DNA from: Lachnospiraceae bacterium
GTDB lineage: Bacteria > Bacillota > Clostridia > Lachnospirales > Lachnospiraceae
Length of the DNA: 39,117 nucleotides
Direction of reading: 5' to 3'
NCBI GenBank assembly: GCA_017503735.1
Contig: JAFVSN010000022.1
Coordinates: forward strand, 1 to 39,117
Under the pieces are notes generated by a model, which saw nothing but the letters and a program-made list of their open reading frames with translations, had not been told where the DNA came from and made no database searches. Position numbers and translations under genes: made by a program. How positions within the stretch are numbered: the stretch's first letter is position 1; each line of letters begins with the position of its first letter. Positions 6,841 through 28,280 of the stretch are shown piece after piece.

Positions 6841-7623
6841 CTACATCTTACTTATTATTTTTATTTCATCTACCATATCTTTTATTACTGGTGATATTTT
6901 ATCACAGAACATTCCATTAAAAAGTTTATTTAAATTCTCATCAAAATTATTTGGCAAAATCTTACATTCCTTAGCGCAAATGCTTTGCATTCTTTTTTCA
7001 CCAGGATGTGTCATTTCATTTAGTGCAAATATAATATCAAAATAACTAGCTAAAAATTCTGCAACTCTGTGATTTACACTTACGAAATCGTTTCTATTCT
7101 CTGCTTTTTCTATTTGTGTATCAAACGAGGGTAACATTCCACTAAGCAATTTCATATTATTTGATATAATATTTTCCTTTAATTTTTTTGGATATGGTAT
7201 CTGATATTTTGTTTGTAACTCCTGCAACTTACCATTCTTGTCATATACAATCTTTGATGTTATAAGATTATGCCACATACATGTCGTATATCCATTCCAT
7301 GCAACACAATCATTCACAACAGACGAAACCATGTTCTCAAAATCTGTCATATTCCTATATATAATATCCATATCTATTCCATCATTTAGTGTAACATCAT
7401 CCTCTAGTTCCCAAAAAGAATTTCCTATTTCCATGTATTTGCAATACTTTTCTAATATATTTCTTCGCATACTCTTATCAACACTATCTGATAAATACAC
7501 ATATACATCATAATCCGATTTCTCATCATTTCTTCCAGTAGCTCGTGAACCTCCAAGCGCAATTGCTTCAACCTGTAAAATATGACTAAATTCATCAAAT
7601 AATTTCTGAACATCAACTTTCAT
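6841..7623 (-). CDS. Nucleotidyltransferase (ANT-like, DUF4037-type)
   Basis: The 260-residue protein has a polymerase-beta-type nucleotidyltransferase core: AIALGGSRATGRNDEKSDYD carries GGS-x(9-10)-D-x-D, and NDGIDMDIIY supplies the third acidic residue. All catalytic positions are present, so it should be active in moving a nucleotide (usually AMP) onto a small molecule. The helical C-terminal half (residues 130-260) would bind the substrate, as in aminoglycoside nucleotidyltransferases and DUF4037 proteins. The ATG has GGAGG 7 bases upstream, in a partial copy of the leader repeat. No substrate can be assigned. Confidence 0.85.
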   Translation of the reverse strand: MKVDVQKLFDEFSHILQVEAIALGGSRATGRNDEKSDYDVYVYLSDSVDKSMRRNILEKYCKYMEIGNSFWELEDDVTLNDGIDMDIIYRNMTDFENMVSSVVNDCVAWNGYTTCMWHNLITSKIVYDKNGKLQELQTKYQIPYPKKLKENIISNNMKLLSGMLPSFDTQIEKAENRNDFVSVNHRVAEFLASYFDIIFALNEMTHPGEKRMQSICAKECKILPNNFDENLNKLFNGMFCDKISPVIKDMVDEIKIISKM

Positions 7624-7787: not shown

Positions 7788-7814
7788 ATCTTTTGGACAC
7801 GATGACCAAAAGAT
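7788..7814. other. Candidate parS centromere site, copy 2
   Basis: ATCTTTTGG and CCAAAAGAT form a perfect 9-bp inverted repeat around ACACGATGA. The central 23 bases (7790-7812) match the palindrome inside parB (11461-11485, minus-strand reading) at 22 positions. A palindrome this long recurring near ParA/ParB genes is how ParB binding sites usually appear. ParB binding is inferred. Confidence 0.6.
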
Positions 7815-7831
7815 AATAGAATTATAACCGT

Positions 7832-7877
7832 ACTAAACTTTGCGTTTAGCCAGTAAACAGCCAACTAAACTTTACGT
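7832..7877 (+). promoter_or_regulatory. Direct repeats upstream of the XRE promoter (possible operator)
   Basis: ACTAAACTTTGCGT (7832-7845) and ACTAAACTTTACGT (7864-7877) differ at one base and start 32 bases apart, about three helical turns. The first is also part of a palindrome, CTAAAC-TTTGC-GTTTAG. They lie just upstream of the -35 box. A regulator, perhaps the XRE protein itself, could bind here. Confidence 0.45.
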
Positions 7878-7880
7878 CGG

Positions 7881-7909
7881 TTGCTGTATTCTGTTATAAC
7901 CTCTATAAT
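7881..7909 (+). promoter_or_regulatory. Promoter of the XRE-membrane regulator gene
   Basis: TTGCTG (7881-7886) and TATAAT (7904-7909) are 17 bases apart, 33 bases before the ATG at 7942. Confidence 0.7.
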
Positions 7910-7941
7910 ATGAACCAGAAAAAAGAAAGGAGTACTTGATT

Positions 7942-8517
7942 ATGGATGCCAAAAAATTCGGAACATTCATCGCATCCTTGCGAAAAGAAAATAATATGAC
8001 ACAAGCTGACTTAGCAAAAAAACTGCAAGTAACCGATAAGGCTATTAGTAAATGGGAACGTGGGTTGGGATTTCCTGATATAAATTCTATTGAACCATTA
8101 GCAGATGCTTTAGGTGTAAGTATACTGGAAATTATGCGTTCTGAAAAACTAGATGAATCGGTAATAACACAAGATACTATCTCCGCTGCTTTGACCGATA
8201 CCTTTGAACTTGTAAAGCTCCAACGTAAAGCAGAACGTAAATCTATCGCCAAAATTATTGGGATTGTTGCTTCTATTTTATTTTTGATTTTTTTGATTGA
8301 TGGAATGGGATGGCTCATCTTTGTAATGACATATTTTCCTGTTATTTGTCTCTTGGGCAGTTTAACCCTCATATTCTATGGTATATGGCGAAAGCGAAAT
8401 AAACTTCCTTGTTTGCAGACTTTTGTTCTTGCCATCATACTATTATTAGTCCCTATTGCTTTTGTTATTTTTCTCTTCTTAATCGGAGCTTTAGGGCTAG
8501 GTCCGGTGCCAACTTAA
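7942..8517 (+). CDS. XRE-family regulator with C-terminal membrane segments
   Basis: The 191-residue protein has an N-terminal helix-turn-helix: FIASLRKENNMTQADLAKKL, then VTDKAISKWERGLGFPDIN, the recognition helix motif of XRE/Cro proteins. SIEPLADALGVSILEIM follows. After a short linker come three hydrophobic segments at about residues 112-130, 132-150 and 160-185, so the DNA-binding domain is tethered to the membrane. The ATG at 7942 has AAAGGAG 8 bases upstream and is preferred over the in-frame TTG at 7936. Such proteins are common in Clostridia and their signals are unknown. It is the only intact plus-strand gene in the island. Confidence 0.87.
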   Translation: MDAKKFGTFIASLRKENNMTQADLAKKLQVTDKAISKWERGLGFPDINSIEPLADALGVSILEIMRSEKLDESVITQDTISAALTDTFELVKLQRKAERKSIAKIIGIVASILFLIFLIDGMGWLIFVMTYFPVICLLGSLTLIFYGIWRKRNKLPCLQTFVLAIILLLVPIAFVIFLFLIGALGLGPVPT

Positions 8518-8527
8518 CCATAAAACA

Positions 8528-8558
8528 AAGAAGCGAAGCTATATCGGCCTCGCTTCTT
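8528..8558. terminator. Bidirectional terminator between convergent genes
   Basis: AAGAAGCGA (8528-8536) pairs with TCGCTTCTT (8550-8558). A T-rich tail follows on both strands. It sits between the stop codons of the XRE gene and the convergent small gene at 8565. Confidence 0.75.
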
Positions 8559-8564
8559 CTTAAT

Positions 8565-8837
8565 TTACGCTGTTAATCTTTCATACTTCTCTTCCGGAGT
8601 AAGTTCAGTATCATTAAGGATGCCCGAAAACATTTCATATCTCTCTGTATCATCCTCAAACTCATCACTGTACCAGAACTTTTCCGAAGCATTTCTTCTT
8701 AGGATTTCCCATAAATAATATACGGAAACTCCCTCTCCCTCCTCAAAGCTCTTGCCGGATAATATTTCAACCCCCTTCTCAAGTTTGATAATACCCTCCG
8801 TCACTTTGATTAAATCAATGTAATCCCTTTTGTCCAT
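8565..8837 (-). CDS. Small acidic protein of unknown function
   Basis: This 90-residue, strongly acidic protein begins MDKRDYIDLIKVTEGIIKLE and ends in NDTELTPEEKYERLTA. It is mostly helical, without membrane segments or known catalytic motifs. The ATG at 8837 has GAGG 5 bases before it; a GTG at 8843 overlaps that site and is less likely. It follows a small membrane protein gene by 12 bases, so they are probably co-transcribed. I do not recognise the family. Confidence 0.65.
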   Translation of the reverse strand: MDKRDYIDLIKVTEGIIKLEKGVEILSGKSFEEGEGVSVYYLWEILRRNASEKFWYSDEFEDDTERYEMFSGILNDTELTPEEKYERLTA

Positions 8838-8849
8838 ACACACCTCATG

Positions 8850-9269
8850 TTATTTCTCTACTCGTATAATCTTGGTTCTATTCATTTCTTTCTTCTGCAA
8901 CCAAGGAACAATCGCATTGGAGAATATACCAAGTTCCAAAAACACTGCAATCGCAAGAATAACTACCTTGAGCAAAATTCGTATGAAGTTATTTCCAATG
9001 CCATCCACTAATGCCCAAAACATTGCAGTAAGCATAATCACACTTGCAACGCATGGAACCGCTGCTATTATCGGCAACATACTTAATACCACATATCCTA
9101 TTACAAAAATTCCACAAAGTAAAAGAGTCATCCAAAAGTTTGCATCCGGGAAAAGTTTCTGATGCATGGGAATACTCCATACCACTGCCGGAATAATGTT
9201 GATTAAAGGCAGACCATAATTCTTCTGATACTTCTCGGTCTCCTTCGTCTGTACTATGTATGTTGCCAT
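8850..9269 (-). CDS. Small multi-pass membrane protein of unknown function
   Basis: The 139-residue protein begins MATYIVQTKETEKYQKNYGL after AGGAGG with 6 bases spacing; a longer reading upstream overlaps the nucleotidyltransferase gene and lacks a ribosome binding site. Hydrophobic segments lie at about residues 22-38, 48-68, 70-95 and 100-122, followed by a basic tail (WLQKKEMNRTKIIRVEK). The spacing to both neighbours suggests one operon from parA down to 8565. Function unknown. Confidence 0.65.
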   Translation of the reverse strand: MATYIVQTKETEKYQKNYGLPLINIIPAVVWSIPMHQKLFPDANFWMTLLLCGIFVIGYVVLSMLPIIAAVPCVASVIMLTAMFWALVDGIGNNFIRILLKVVILAIAVFLELGIFSNAIVPWLQKKEMNRTKIIRVEK

Positions 9270-9288
9270 ATCTGCTCCTCCTAAATTT

Positions 9289-9657
9289 TTATCGTCCTCT
9301 ATGTGCTCTTCTTGTTTGCTCTTTCCAGTTATCATCGCACCTTTGCAAGTAATCCTCAATCGTCCCGGAACACTCCGCTTTGATAGGGTTGACATCTATC
9401 AGAACACCATTCATCCGTTGCTCCTCTTCGTGTAAAATATTGAAAATGGTATCCTCTCTTGCAGACCCTTCATATTCCACCAAAACGTCCAAATCCGAAT
9501 CTTCTGTTGCCTTACCGCTTACCCTGCTTCCATACGCCCGAATCCCCACATAAGAAAATTCTGTAGCATCATACCCGGCATCTTCAACGGTATCAAGAAT
9601 CCAGTCCCTTACTTTGTCAATATCTACGCCTACATCCAATTTCTCAACTCCTTTCAT
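9289..9657 (-). CDS. MNT-type minimal nucleotidyltransferase
   Basis: The 122-residue protein carries VGIRAYGSRVSGKATEDSDL with DVLVEY, the GS-x(9)-D-x-D core of minimal nucleotidyltransferases, and VLIDVNPI for the third acidic residue. MNT proteins often act with a HEPN partner as toxin-antitoxin modules or modify tRNA or proteins, but no HEPN-like Rx4-6H protein is seen next to it. It lies 14 bases after repA. The ATG at 9657 has no good ribosome binding site; AAAGGAG inside the frame favours a TTG start at 9642. Confidence 0.82.
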   Translation of the reverse strand: MKGVEKLDVGVDIDKVRDWILDTVEDAGYDATEFSYVGIRAYGSRVSGKATEDSDLDVLVEYEGSAREDTIFNILHEEEQRMNGVLIDVNPIKAECSGTIEDYLQRCDDNWKEQTRRAHRGR

Positions 9658-9671
9658 TATACATCATCCGT

Positions 9672-10652
9672 TCATCCTACTCCATACAAATCATGATTCA
9701 CTTCTGCATTGTAATAATGATTCATGGTATTAGGAGCGTTATACAAAGCAGTAATCAAATATGCCTTAATATTGCTAACCTTGGTTGTATTACGTTCCAT
9801 GCATCCAATCACATATTGCAGGTGAGAAGAATTAAGCTTAAGGAATTTACTCTTCACAAGTGCATAAGGGTAATCCTCTCCTGCTATACGAATTGTCTTT
9901 CTTGGAACACATACCACTTCACAAATCAACTGATACAATTCTTCATAATACTCTCTGTCTCTCCAAGTAGGACAGCTCATCAAAGCATCATACTCTATAT
10001 TTTCTCTGATAAGTTCCATGTAAGCTTCTGCCTCATCCATCTCATCTGCATCACCGGATTGAATGATATGATTAGTCTTATTCATATTAGTATTATTAAA
10101 ATCATTATTATTAGGGTCTAAATTTTTGACTGGTGGCAGTCCACTTTCCGTACTGGTTCCGGTATGAATATCAACCTCGTCCTCTTTTTGCACCAGTTCA
10201 CTTTCTGTACCGGTTAAAATATCAGACTGGTCTTCCACCTGCGGTACAGATTTCTTACTGGTCTGTTTTTTAGACCGGTCTACCTGCTCTGACTTGTCTT
10301 GTGATACAAAGTTTTTCACATAAATAATATTTGCCTTACCGTTTTGTTGAATCATATCTATAAGCCCTATATCGTTTAAATCTTTTACTGCCCCAACTGC
10401 AGTCTGTTTGCTGCAGTTGAGGTCTTCCATAATACTTGCGATAGAATATTTGATATAGACTCTGTTTGCTTCGTCAAACCATCCACTTCTAGCTGACAAA
10501 GACATACGGTCAAGCATAAGTCCGTAGAGAAGCTTTGCATTATTGGAAACATCCTTAAAACGAGCATCACTAATCAGAGCTTTCGGCAAACGATAAAATG
10601 TAAACTGCTCTGCTTCTTGCCCATAATAAAATTCTAAATCCAATCTACTCAC
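9672..10652 (-). CDS. repA: Replication initiator RepA (RepA_N family with DUF6017-like C terminus)
   Basis: The opening VSRLDLEFYYGQEAEQFTFY-RLPKAL and the following KDVSNNAKLLYGLMLDRMSL match the RepA_N domain of plasmid and conjugative-element initiators, with a winged helix (YSIASIMEDLNCSKQTAVGA). A low-complexity linker (residues about 120-190) contains repeated peptides, and the C-terminal 110 residues, ending in NHYYNAEVNHDLYGVG, look like DUF6017. The start is taken as GTG at 10652, 12 bases from AGGAGG; an ATG at 10682 lies inside parB and has no ribosome binding site. With ParA and ParB it makes a full replication and partition block, so this part of the island replicates or once replicated as a plasmid or ICE. 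Origin-like repeats lie within the gene. Confidence 0.88.
   Translation of the reverse strand: MSRLDLEFYYGQEAEQFTFYRLPKALISDARFKDVSNNAKLLYGLMLDRMSLSARSGWFDEANRVYIKYSIASIMEDLNCSKQTAVGAVKDLNDIGLIDMIQQNGKANIIYVKNFVSQDKSEQVDRSKKQTSKKSVPQVEDQSDILTGTESELVQKEDEVDIHTGTSTESGLPPVKNLDPNNNDFNNTNMNKTNHIIQSGDADEMDEAEAYMELIRENIEYDALMSCPTWRDREYYEELYQLICEVVCVPRKTIRIAGEDYPYALVKSKFLKLNSSHLQYVIGCMERNTTKVSNIKAYLITALYNAPNTMNHYYNAEVNHDLYGVG
10087..10300. other. Candidate replication origin within repA
   Basis: RepA_N plasmids often carry their origin inside repA. Here CACTTTCCGTACTGGT (10142-10157) recurs as CACTTTCTGTACCGGT (10199-10214), a 57-base (19-codon) period. Further ACTGGT/ACCGGT elements follow to 10280. 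An AT-rich run lies beside them at 10087-10115. In the protein the repeats read TGTESEL and TGTSTESGL. Origin function is inferred. Confidence 0.4.
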
Positions 10653-10654
10653 GT

Positions 10655-11551
10655 TTATACTTGACCTCCTTTCTTCTTCCATTCATCAAGAAGCTTTACA
10701 ATAAGCTCCTCAATATCACTGTTGCTCATGTTCGGCTCAAAGTAAGAATCCAATTTTTTCTGATTGAATACCACCTTACGCACTGGTTGCTTAACGTAGG
10801 TAAGCATATCTTTGATATACGCCTCGTTTAAGTAACCCTTTTTATCCGCTTCTCTAATACGTGAAGCCTGCTCAACGCTAATTACGCATCCAAGTTCTTC
10901 TATAACCTTGTACACGATACTCTGCTGAGTTTCATCCAAATATGAAATTTCCAGACCTTGCATAACACCAAGTTTCTTATTGTCTACAAGTTCAAGCAGT
11001 TCATCACTTAATCGTGCCAAACAGATATATCGCTGAATAGTCTTTCTGCTCTCGCCGGATTCCTCACTCATCTTCTCCAAACTGATTCCTCCTGCGGCTC
11101 CCTGATGCTTCATAGCCTCATATTTCATGCTGTATGCTTTTGCTTTCTCACTGATGGAAATATCCTCACGCTGAATGTTTGAATCTACCATGATAATAGT
11201 TGCTTCATCATCCGTATATTCACGAACCATAAAAGGCATTTCCGTCTTTCCTGCAATCTCCGAAGCACGTCTTCTACGATGGCCGGAAATAATCTCGTAC
11301 CCACCGCCTTTTCTTGGTCTTGCAATACCCGGCACTAATACACCATGGGCTTTTACACTTTCAACGGTTTCTTCCATCTTTTCATCATCCAAAACCTTAA
11401 ACGGATGATTCTTAAATGTATACAGTTCACTCAGAGGGACATTGATAATCTGCCCCTCCGACTTTTGGTCATCGTGACCAAAAGTGTCCGTTCCAAACAT
11501 TTCATCATAAGTCGATAACTTAATTTTCTCTCCCAAATTTCTTTTAGCCAT
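10655..11551 (-). CDS. parB: ParB-family chromosome/plasmid partition protein
   Basis: The 298-residue protein has a ParB N-terminal domain: NVPLSELYTFKNHPFKVLDD, ESVKAHGVLVPGIARPR, and ISGHRRRRASEIAGKTEMPF (the GERRxRA motif, with H for E), then the arginine-rich DSNIQRE patch. A helix-turn-helix follows (EKMSEESGESRKTIQRYICL) that would read a parS site. The C-terminal helix, ending in ELIVKLLDEWKKKGG, would dimerise. It overlaps parA by 8 bases and its 3' end carries the ribosome binding site for repA. Codons 16-25 contain a perfect 11-bp-arm palindrome that is likely its own binding site. Confidence 0.93.
   Translation of the reverse strand: MAKRNLGEKIKLSTYDEMFGTDTFGHDDQKSEGQIINVPLSELYTFKNHPFKVLDDEKMEETVESVKAHGVLVPGIARPRKGGGYEIISGHRRRRASEIAGKTEMPFMVREYTDDEATIIMVDSNIQREDISISEKAKAYSMKYEAMKHQGAAGGISLEKMSEESGESRKTIQRYICLARLSDELLELVDNKKLGVMQGLEISYLDETQQSIVYKVIEELGCVISVEQASRIREADKKGYLNEAYIKDMLTYVKQPVRKVVFNQKKLDSYFEPNMSNSDIEELIVKLLDEWKKKGGQV
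11461..11485. other. Candidate parS centromere site, copy 1 (inside parB)
   Basis: ACTTTTGGTCA and TGACCAAAAGT form a perfect 11-bp inverted repeat around TCG. It encodes TFGHDDQKS of ParB, so the palindrome is kept within coding sequence. A near-identical copy lies at 7788-7814. Confidence 0.65.
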
Positions 11552-12326
11552 TATTCGCCACCTCCTCTGTCAATGCTTCATATGCCGCAGCTACCTTTCC
11601 TTTTGCATCATGCTTATAAATACTCACACCCATTGCAGGAGTCTCTGCCGCCCTAACTGACATCGGAATTGACGTATCAAAGATATGGATGCTTGAACCG
11701 TACACACTATATAAAACATCTGTAATCTCACTTGCGTAATTGGTTCTGTAGTCCACCATTGTCAATAAAATGCCCATAATATGCAATTTAGGATTCATCT
11801 TACGTTTTACCCTACTAATTGTCTTTAAGAGCTGTTCTAAGCCCTTAATCGGCAAATATGCGGCTTGTACCGGGATAATAACCTCATCTGCCGCTACAAG
11901 TGCATTTAATGTAAGCTGACCTAAGTTTGGTGAGCAGTCAATGAGGATATAATCATACTTCGCACCAATCAATGCGATATAATCCTTTAATACTGTTTCA
12001 CTGCTCATAATCCCAATAAGGGAAGTTTCTACACCGGACAATTCAATATTTGCAGGCATAAGGTCTACTCCCTCTTCATGATGAAGAATTCCTGCTTCCA
12101 AATCGAAATCCTCTTCGTTCAATACCCATTCCATAATCTGAGCCATGGTTGTCTCTAATCTGTCCGGTTCTTGATATCCTAACGCCTCAGTGAGTGACCC
12201 CTGAGGATCGTTGTCTATCAACAATACTTTCTTGCCTAATCTGGCAAGTCCAATTCCTAAATTTAATGTTGTGGTGGTCTTTGCTACGCCACCTTTCTGA
12301 TTTGCACAAATAATAACTTTACTCAT
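11544..12326 (-). CDS. parA: ParA-family partition ATPase
   Basis: The 260-residue protein has the deviant Walker A box ANQKGGVAKTTTTLNLG at residues 8-24, the Walker A' stretch VLLIDNDPQGSLTEALGY, and Walker B YDYILIDCSPNLGQLTLNAL. These are the marks of ParA/Soj ATPases that move ParB-bound DNA. Residues 150-260 (VKRKMNPKLHIMGILLTMVD, then VRAAETPAMGVSIYKHD) are the normal C-terminal half. The ATG has AAAAGGAG upstream. It is the second gene of the partition-replication operon. Confidence 0.95.
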   Translation of the reverse strand: MSKVIICANQKGGVAKTTTTLNLGIGLARLGKKVLLIDNDPQGSLTEALGYQEPDRLETTMAQIMEWVLNEEDFDLEAGILHHEEGVDLMPANIELSGVETSLIGIMSSETVLKDYIALIGAKYDYILIDCSPNLGQLTLNALVAADEVIIPVQAAYLPIKGLEQLLKTISRVKRKMNPKLHIMGILLTMVDYRTNYASEITDVLYSVYGSSIHIFDTSIPMSVRAAETPAMGVSIYKHDAKGKVAAAYEALTEEVANNG

Positions 12327-12717: not shown

Positions 12718-12837
12718 TTAGACTCTATTCGTCAGTTGAGACCATATTTCTTCATATCTCGTTACGAATTTGTTGTAGTAAGCGTTGTACCTAGGTACTT
12801 TTGAAAGCCCGCAAACCCGCATAAATACTGGGTTTTT
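12718..12837 (-). other. Possible element end or attachment region at the lysS 3' end
   Basis: Just past the lysS stop the minus strand has a short inverted repeat (AACCC..GGGTT), a GCGGGTTTGCGGG run and the palindrome GTACCTAGGTAC (12787-12798). It also has a 34-codon open frame (12718-12822) with KVPRYNAYYNKF in it and no ribosome binding site. Gene content changes here from core to plasmid-type. No second copy was found in the window, so an att role is conjecture. Confidence 0.25.
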
Positions 12838-14344
12838 ACTTATCAAAACTCTTCATTGTCGGGAACAATAACACATCTCTGATCGCCGGGCTGTTGGTTA
12901 ACAACATTACCAATCTGTCGATACCGTAACCGATACCACCGGTCGGCGGCATACCGATTTCAAGGGCATTCATGAAGTCCTCATCGGTGGTGTTTGCTTC
13001 CTCATCGCCTGCGGCGAGGGCAGCTTCCTGTGCTTTGAAACGCTCTCTCTGGTCGATCGGGTCATTGAGCTCGGAGTATGCGTTACACATCTCCCAGGTG
13101 TTGATAAACAACTCGAAACGCTCTACATAATCCGGCTTGTCCGGCTTTCTCTTCGTAAGAGGAGAAACCTCTACCGGATGATCCATAATGAAGGTCGGCT
13201 GAATCAAATGCTCTTCTACAAACTCCTCGAAGAAAAGATTTAAGATGTCGCCCTTCTCGTGACGTGCCTCGTAGTGTACATCCTTTTCATCCGCAATCTT
13301 CTTTGCTTCTGCGGTATCCTTTACCTGATCAAAGTCCACACCGGTGTACTTCTTAACCGCTTCAATCATGGTCATACGCTCAAACGGCTTACCGAGGTCG
13401 ATGGTGTGCTCACCGTAGGTAATGGTGGTGGTGCCGCAAACCTCTTCCGCAAGATAACGGAACAGATTCTCGGTCAAATCCATCATGCCATAGTAGTCGG
13501 TGTATGCTTGGTACAGTTCCATAAGGGTGAACTCCGGGTTGTGTCTGGTATCCAAACCTTCGTTACGGAATACACGGCCAATTTCGTATACACGCTCCAG
13601 ACCGCCTACAATTAATCTCTTTAAGTAAAGCTCTAAGGAAATACGAAGCTTTACATCCTCATCAAGTGCATTATAATGCGTTTCAAACGGTCTTGCGGAA
13701 GCACCGCCTGCATTTGCCACCAGCATCGGAGTCTCAACTTCCATAAAGCCCTGTCCGTCCAAATAATGACGAATGGAACTGATGATTTTGGAACGCTTTA
13801 CAAAGGTTTCCTTTACTTCTGCGTTCATAATAAGATCCGTATATCTCTGACGATAACGGATATCCGTATTGGTCAGACCGTGGTACTTCTCCGGAAGCAC
13901 CTGTAAGCTCTTGCTGAGCAGGGTCACATTCGTAGCGTGTACGGAAATCTCGCCGGTCTTCGTCTTAAATACTTCACCTTCGATACCTACGATATCGCCC
14001 ACGTCAAACTTCTTGAAATCCGCATACGGTGCCTCACCGATGCTGTCTCTTGCCACATAAGACTGAATATTTCCCTTTAAATCCTGCACATTACAGAAGG
14101 AAGCCTTACCCATAACACGTTTTGACATCACACGGCCTGCGATGCGTACGGTTTTGCCTTCCATCTCCTCGAAATTATCCTTAATCTCGGTGCTGTGATG
14201 GGTTACGTCATACTTTGTAATCTGGAACGGGTCTTTCCCGTCTGCCTGCAACTGTGCAAGCTTTTCTCTGCGGACACGCAAAAGTTCATTCAAGTCCTGC
14301 TGCGGTGCCGCCTGTGCAGTCTTCTGCATATTTTCTTCTGCCAC
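12836..14344 (-). CDS. lysS: Lysine--tRNA ligase, class II
   Basis: The 502-residue protein has the bacterial LysRS layout: a helical start, an anticodon-binding OB fold at about 65-155 ([20 protein letters not shown]), and the class II catalytic core. Motif 1 lies near [20 protein letters not shown], motif 2 is [20 protein letters not shown], and motif 3 is [18 protein letters not shown]. It charges tRNA-Lys in the cytoplasm. The start is GTG at 14344 with GGAGG 8 bases upstream. It lies downstream of greA in the same orientation, with a hairpin between, a common pairing in Clostridia. The gene is complete, although the accessory island begins right after its stop. Confidence 0.98.
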
Positions 14345-28255: not shown

Positions 28256-28280
28256 ATGAGTCTCGCAAAGCGAGACTCAT
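28256..28280 (-). terminator. Terminator of the PNPOx-family gene
   Basis: ATGAGTCTCGC-AAA-GCGAGACTCAT is a perfect 11-bp hairpin. TTTTCGG follows on the minus strand. It lies 43 bases past the stop codon at 28323. Confidence 0.8.

Follow-up and report, generated by a model that had tools for sequence, protein, structure and literature searches.

What reads a long palindrome that lies within the coding frame of a partition gene and recurs nearby? The question is raised by a parA-parB-repA module beside lysS in a Lachnospiraceae bacterium (GCA_017503735.1, contig JAFVSN010000022.1). The stretch analysed, here called the window, is one complete contig of 39,117 bases (C28) from a 3.08-Mb draft genome (58 contigs, 94.63% complete). 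The in-gene palindrome at 11461-11485 reads ACTTTTGGTCA-TCG-TGACCAAAAGT, with perfect arms of 11 bases and a spacer of 3 bases, just as a reading of the DNA letters alone (the sequence-only reading) had reported; on the gene strand, ACT TTT GGT CAC GAT GAC CAA AAG T encodes T-F-G-H-D-D-Q-K. The second copy, with the core CTTTTGGACACGATGACCAAAAG at 7790-7812 and a single break in the inner arms of 7789-7813, is located in non-coding DNA, again as reported, between open reading frames (ORFs) starting at 7623 (minus strand) and 7942 (plus strand). The 22 of 23 identical bases claimed for the two copies hold against the reverse complement of 11462-11484, whereas only 19 of 23 agree in the same direction. 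Our analysis shows that these palindromes are very probably the parS sites of a mobile element's own ParABS system, in which site and reader co-vary.

The proposal that they are candidate parS sites of the local ParB is supported, first, by their restriction to the module. Odd-centre palindromes of 25 bp with at least 10 of 11 pairs occur three times in the window, whereas dinucleotide-preserving shuffles average 0.275; two of the three are perfect, and 40 such shuffles produced no perfect one. The third, at 28256-28280 between two minus-strand ORFs, is perfect but unrelated in sequence (ATGAGTCTCGCAAAGCGAGACTCAT) and is possibly a terminator. A search of the draft genome with the pattern CTTTTGGNNANNNTNNCCAAAAG returned only the two window sites and none with the reversed pattern, i.e., a parS-type palindrome near parAB that is rare elsewhere in the genome. 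The arms also differ from the chromosomal parS, as the sequence-only reading stated: the Spo0J-type consensus TGTTTCACGTGAAACA, which the window sites do not match, is present in three copies, all on contig C58.

Like sites at related parA-parB-repA modules lend further support. A locus from another genus (L052, on G055:C123) carries a parB identical to the window's over 894 of 894 bases, which points to a very recent transfer; being identical at every base, it is uninformative on conservation of the site. In the G096 relative, at 93% protein identity, 24 of 25 bases of the in-parB site are retained, with 8 of 8 third codon positions kept within the site compared to 196 of 298 across the whole gene, and its second site is likewise found downstream of repA (L095:6451-6473). 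At 49% identity, the pattern-selected locus L137 shows 10 of 11 pairs at the same 5' place. The relaxed pattern CTTYTGGWCANNNTGWCCARAAG, with at most 1 mismatch allowed, matched at 70 places, distributed over 35 of the 200 family genomes (reversed control, 3). For 34 of these places, which are typically downstream of repA, the fetched stretch also contains a ParB relative no more than ~12 kb away. Absence of the palindrome from related parB loci is seen in part, as regards its precise letters and its 5' location, while the site family is kept. At L082:5249-5919, four identical sites follow each other at an exact spacing of 216 bp.

We also scanned one genome per species, 84,980 species in all, for the exact pattern and found at least 118 stretches, 80 of them listed. 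Their titles are almost all Clostridia or other Bacillota; the exceptions among the matches listed are a planctomycete and a Synergistales metagenome-assembled genome (L106 and L173). When the ORFs on 118 stretches were clustered without ParB as bait, ParB was the commonest family (34), followed by RepA (29) and ParA (23). Regulatory sites scattered over the whole element were considered and rejected, the clustering having ranked ParB first; conjugation-like families, recognized by sequence reading, were present as well.

A site within the parB frame had been called unusual, which is wrong for this ParB family, where it is common. The spo0J gene of Bacillus subtilis contains a parS. A search for 25-bp palindromes near 103 ParB hits very often placed them within the gene, at nucleotides ~440-510, for ParBs ~38-47% identical to that of the window (P0001). 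Among 82 parB genes from fetched stretches chosen by ParB hit alone (some listed ParB matches were left out), 35 have an in-gene palindrome of at least 10 of 11 pairs and 18 a perfect one, against 0.78 and 0.04 in synonymous-codon shuffles. All but one of the 35 occupy the same place, the loop just before the helix-turn-helix. A set of 127 distinct parB genes gave 46 such palindromes (25 perfect) against 1.55 (0 perfect) in synonymous-codon shuffles; this set includes 33 genes from pattern-selected stretches, and the 82-gene set is therefore preferred. In a second sample, obtained with L223 as query from other families of the order (30 loci, of which 1 was too short, 6 belonged to the same family and 23 were counted), 15 of 23 genes reached at least 10 of 11 pairs, against 0.4. 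Fourteen of these 15 sites are in the loop and 6 are perfect (control, 0); one hit, L303, is an A/T-rich chance palindrome. Records from plasmid and phage collections carried an in-loop palindrome of at least 10 of 11 pairs in 7 of 11 examined, from 67 matching, including Cohnella herbarum NZ_CP051681.1 (Bacilli) and the Enterococcus faecalis plasmid LR962508.1.

The 40 mid-gene sites have their centre always in the same codon position, yet 39 of them are distinct and 13 different triplets occur at -7 to -5. Most commonly, ACTTC-NNN-CCA flanks a short centre, though not strictly: AATT replaces ACTT in 10 of 40, and C or T stands at -8 in 35 and at -4 in 29. The typical loop peptide is T-S-x-Q-V-x-x-K, whose variable residues follow from the palindrome. 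The triplet-free pattern ACTTYNNNYCANNNTGRNNNRAAGT matched in 43 of 200 genomes, and its control gave 3 hits. We typed 44 of its 101 places, taken from the matches listed and leaving out the arrays of three genomes (47 places), one duplicate and nine places outside the listing: the triplets are fully complementary in 34 and in two of three letters in 8, with full complementarity expected by chance at ~1/64. The three arrays consist of ACTTCGGGYCANNTTGGCCCGAAGT-type sites which, among the matches listed, are spread over 22-35 kb of one contig (G038:C12:12163-47146, 15 sites; G127:C3:504952-527001, 14; G144:C5:623534-646784, 18).

Loop length separates the two forms of the protein. Measured from a KYEAMKHQ-type motif through the helix region, the stretch is 39-40 aa long in 51 of 83 ParBs without a counted palindrome, compared to 48-54 aa in 39 of 40 ParBs with a mid-gene palindrome; palindrome-bearing ParBs thus have an insert about as long as the site. 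When this stretch is at least 44 aa long, 55 of 68 genes show at least 9 of 11 pairs there, as opposed to 2 of 59 when it is shorter. The window ParB is a short-loop variant; here the in-gene site occupies the 5' end of parB, and a copy is found downstream of repA.

The strongest support for the parS assignment comes from site letters that co-vary with the ParB recognition helix. We compared 54 sites, defined as those of the 127 genes with at least 9 of 11 pairs at nt 40-140 or 380-540 and an arm starting with AC or AA. Lysine or arginine at the position of P0001 residue 170 goes with G at -5 in 24 of 24 cases (K 13/13, R 11/11), and other residues go without this G in 29 of 30 (Fisher 1.8e-14). 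Asparagine is accompanied by CC at -5/-4 (9/9), D by G at -4 (6/6), S and T by C at -4 (5/5 and 3/3) and E by CA (2/2). The window obeys the K/R rule, since its ParB has K170 and each arm of its two sites has G at -5. In the second sample the K/R rule held in 18 of 18. Counted among these are L300, probably a chance palindrome; L305 and L306, which share one site; L282 and L299, from the window's family; and L277 and L278, whose identity to the query is 95% and 88%. L304 is an exception to the finer rule of S with C at -4. Among the seven sites from named records, no ParB has K or R at 170 and no site has G at -5. External sites agreed with the K/R rule in 28 of 28, out of a table of 33 rows from which we left out five whose site falls in the locus's second parB (L097, L248, L250, L251, L265); two of these break the rule when paired with the wrong ParB.

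A mutual-information screen of the 54 sites against all non-loop columns, taken as a five-position mean, ranked K170, I156, L158, Q173 and R169 on top, all in the helix-turn-helix, with D279 close behind; Y85 and D279 score for single site positions. Loop columns were set aside as trivial because they are encoded by the site itself, and the scores of I156 and L158, which both border the loop, may be an alignment effect. In a pair test on 1,712 pairs of 38-60% identity, a range chosen to limit shared ancestry, agreement in column 170 raised the sharing of the two letters by 0.33, while the next best of 253 columns scored 0.08. In the alignment, GESR 166-169 of P0001 corresponds to GKAR of Spo0J. 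Caulobacter ParB residues G170, K171, S172 and R173 are named as parS contacts in passages of PMC7383237; by these residue numbers and the Spo0J alignment, on which its placement in the helix is based, K170 would fall one residue beyond Caulobacter R173. From this covariation we infer that ParB binds the site.

Comparison of closely related elements suggests how site and helix change together. In the parB genes of L248/L251 and L228/L239, 45-nt windows are 82-100% identical except for three consecutive ones at 42-62%, and these hold both the palindrome and the helix; L228/L223 and L267/L268 show the same dip less sharply (49-84% and 53-78%). At the level of whole loci, identity between L248 and L251 is 95.8% over 4.9 kb and stays at 91-100% in all 100-nt windows but two (69-73%), and L267 and L268 are 94.8% identical over 4.1 kb with one dip (86, 67, 83%). 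Outside the block (P0001 columns 30-262), 62 pairs among 92 long-loop ParBs reach at least 88% identity, and inside it 30 of the 62 have at most 55%; the pairs share members and are not independent. The L288/L293 proteins are identical outside the block and 53% identical inside, and the block often differs in length as well. We infer that a block of ~140-200 bp containing site and helix is exchanged by recombination as a site-plus-reader cassette.

The alternative which survives best accepts the sites as parS and lets the block diverge by fast point mutation under selection, without cassette exchange. Selection for incompatibility could make site and helix residues co-diverge, and pairs that are moderately divergent throughout do exist (L243/L247, L221/L227, L223/L221). 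In addition, no exact donor block was found among the ParBs compared, and clearly different ParBs share a similar block in just two pairs (0.85-0.87 within the block, 0.56-0.60 outside). However, L248/L251 and L267/L268 are near-identical apart from their sharp local dips, and neither the L288/L293 pair nor the frequent length differences fit gradual change, so that we regard point mutation alone as the less likely, if still arguable, course of events.

Considerably weaker is the idea that the palindromes are origin- or iteron-like binding sites of the RepA_N protein, their closeness to parB reflecting a shared operon. RepA is the second commonest family near the blind pattern hits (29/118), and six loci (L043, L045, L051, L057, L080, L103) combine a site with a RepA-like gene and no ParB relative. 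Against this, eight stretches have sites in or beside parB where no relative of the window's RepA, P0003, was found (L071, L097, L111, L133, L137, L159, L164, L165). Moreover, the letters co-vary with the ParB helix, and both change together between near-identical genes. We therefore consider a RepA site very unlikely. Five of the six loci share a near-identical CCTCTGGACAAAGTGTCCAGAAG-type sequence (L043:9058, L045:9546, L051:9093, L057:9487, L080:9368), ~0.7-0.8 kb from the RepA-like gene; four of the five have another, weaker palindrome 26 bp away, its arms being of the GGGAC or GGGTC type.

A hairpin in the parB message, acting in translation control or attenuation, is highly improbable: although 11-base arms with a 3-base loop could fold in RNA and the window site is early in parB, the second window copy lies between genes and has one mismatched pair in its arms, copies occupy several positions and also occur outside parB, and covariation with the helix would not be expected. 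Furthermore, the mismatches in the 40 loop sites (A-C 14, G-T 9, T-T 8, four others) show no G-U-compatible excess; as A-C is not rarer than G-T, it is the DNA letters that appear constrained and not pairing in the message. Equally improbable are operators of the XRE-type regulator or another local repressor, for the site ~130 bp upstream of the XRE gene in a divergent intergenic region, and the small XRE-like ORF (by sequence reading) beside the second G096 site, are set against an XRE protein that has no relative in the G096 stretch and just five weak matches elsewhere in the searched stretches (L084, L245, L271, L043, L057), against the other copy within parB, and against helix covariation pointing to ParB.

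Several observations nevertheless weigh against the palindromes being parS sites read by the neighbouring ParB. At the 5' in-parB place, L059 (G082, 65% identity) has only 8 of 11 pairs and L054 (G026, 62%) no palindrome of the same build, and the palindrome is missing in 13 of the 68 long-loop genes. Of the CTTYTGGWCANNNTGWCCARAAG places, 36 of 70 have no ParB relative on the fetched stretch, which short contigs explain in part; tblastn puts a ParA, ParB or RepA relative in just 28 of 80 stretches among the matches listed, and a ParB-family ORF is missing from 84 of the 118 blind stretches, none of which exceeds 8 kb. The five CCTCTGGACAAAGTGTCCAGAAG-type sites near a RepA-like gene have no ParB relative on their stretches. 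The window's own arms, CTTTTGGTCA, recur without a detected ParB relative in three loci that resemble integrative and mobilizable elements (L088:10121-10202, L103:3667-3837, L154:5575-5597); these are possibly satellites borrowing another element's ParB, or the site may have another reader there. The downstream sites of the window and G096 adjoin different XRE-type genes (that of G096 by sequence reading). As for the covariation, D279 also scores for one site position, and since every ParB of the external sites has K or R, these sites offer nothing to contrast the residue rule with. Because one gene carries both site and helix, shared ancestry contributes to the correlation, an effect which the pair test shrinks without removing. 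Finally, in two of the four dipping pairs, L228/L239 and L228/L223 (87-90% over 3.7 kb), identity also dips outside the block. In L103 and L154, the small neighbouring proteins have no Pfam match, and L103 also contains RepA_N and a Tn916-type integrase.

The positions of the features discussed are collected in the following table.

Table. Partition module, palindromes and neighbouring features in the window.
Feature	Position	Strand	Remarks
parS-type palindrome in parB	11461-11485	.	codons 23-31, nt 67-91 of gene
Second parS-type palindrome	7789-7813	.	intergenic; 1.86 kb past repA 3' end
parB (P0001, 298 aa; ParB_N + HTH_ParB)	10655-11551	-	domain search
ParB helix-turn-helix segment, aa 156-175, ISLEKMSEESGESRKTIQRY	11027-11086	-	
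K170 codon, recognition-helix residue tracking site letters -5/-4	11042-11044	-	
parA (P0002, 260 aa, AAA_31/CbiA)	11544-12326	-	domain search
repA (P0003, 336 aa, RepA_N + DUF6017)	9672-10682	-	domain search
lysS, flanks module	12836-14344	-	named by sequence reading alone; adjoins greA
TTCCCGACAATGA, lysS 3' end	12853-12865	-	one exact copy in window
XRE-type regulator gene	7942-8517	+	domain search

From lysS leftward, the minus-strand order of the module is an 80-aa ORF, parA, parB and repA. P0001 scores above cut-off for PF02195 (4.8e-18) and PF17762 (3.3e-06), and the solved chains closest to it in sequence are Spo0J, ParB and Noc proteins. Residues G90 H91 R92 R93, N125, Q127 and R128, which are invariant across a 26-sequence alignment, align with GERR and ENLQRED of Spo0J; the nucleotide-binding motifs of the ParB fold are present at the level of sequence. 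The ATPase gene parA adjoins parB (AAA_31, 6.3e-56), and P0003 qualifies as a RepA_N initiator (PF06970, 4.1e-25). In L015, L020 and L024, repeated ACTTCCAGAAGT-like motifs ~1.3-1.4 kb after the parB start are perhaps RepA_N iterons.

DNA carrying lysS and greA adjoins the module in several other genera (L038, L041, L060, L086 and L095 among others), and the lysS 3' end holds TTCCCGACAATGA. Islands integrated in Enterococcus lysS have a 13-bp direct repeat, TTCCC[AGC]ACAATGA, near the lysS 3' end, as given in PMC8301612; TTCCCGACAATGA is identical to one form of it, though 13 bases alone are weak evidence. Neither a second exact repeat nor the far end of the element was found in the window. 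Near the contig end (763-2095) we noted a ParE/RelB-type toxin-antitoxin pair and an ORF of 196 aa with an integrase domain (1505-2095). No conjugation domain was found among the 20 window ORFs scanned; conjugation-type ORFs were recognized in related stretches by sequence reading.

Chromosomal ParABS systems (Spo0J/ParB with a 16-bp parS) and Noc with its Noc-binding sites (NBS) resemble the present system in their ParB_N and helix-turn-helix fold and in a palindromic site; in both, recognition-helix residues set specificity, according to passages of PMC7383237. In contrast to these systems, the site here is a palindrome of 25-27 bp, typically A[CA]TTY-NNN-N-CA-centre plus complement with variable triplets, it belongs to a mobile element, and the main covarying residue is K170 and not the one aligned with Caulobacter R173. 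The repABC replicons of Alphaproteobacteria likewise unite partition and replication genes in one module and have parS nearby; PMC9040568 describes it within ORFs or at the repB 5' end as well. They differ in that a RepA_N/DUF6017 gene here follows parB instead of RepC, for which none of the ten window proteins scanned had a match, and in that the site of long-loop relatives is contained in an insert of the loop that precedes the reading helix, site and helix changing together. The mobilizable element SGI1, which mimics the parS of IncC plasmids and so carries sites for its helper's ParB (PMC10954446), offers a possible analogy for L088, L103 and L154 only. The lysS-integrating islands Tn6711-Tn6713 share the 13-bp direct repeat near the lysS 3' end; a term search of the main text of PMC8301612 returned neither ParA nor RepA. 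Titles and abstract openings of the open-access literature surveyed contained no description of a site-plus-reader parB block, which is no proof of absence.

By analogy with known ParABS systems, from which the loading and movement steps are taken, ParB dimers would read the palindrome through the helix-turn-helix, load there and spread, and ParA would move the replicated, excised element apart at division. The residue at position 170 of P0001 goes with letters -5/-4 of each arm. In most of the long-loop relatives examined, the site is found inside parB in a loop insert that directly precedes the helix; the block of site and helix, which varies as one unit among genes nearly identical elsewhere, would be swapped as a cassette, an exchange that is probably driven by incompatibility between co-resident elements. 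Possibly, as the sequence-only reading had proposed, the in-gene site also lets ParB dampen its own operon. Altogether, the data make it reasonably likely that a large family of mobile-element ParBs carries its own parS as an in-frame insert of parB, that a block swap switches partition specificity and incompatibility while the match is kept, that the loop residues are a by-product of the DNA site, and that one helix residue largely sets two letters (K/R, G at -5; N, CC; D, G at -4; E or M, CA).

How a protein and the DNA site that it binds can jointly switch specificity without passing through a broken intermediate is a long-standing question. The family described here supplies dozens of candidate ParB-parS pairs with the site in the gene, including near-identical pairs that differ mainly in site and helix, and the simple residue-to-letter rule makes a joint change of specificity directly testable. 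It would also allow the partition groups of gut mobile elements to be predicted from one gene, and would supply candidate orthogonal ParB-parS pairs for DNA labelling.

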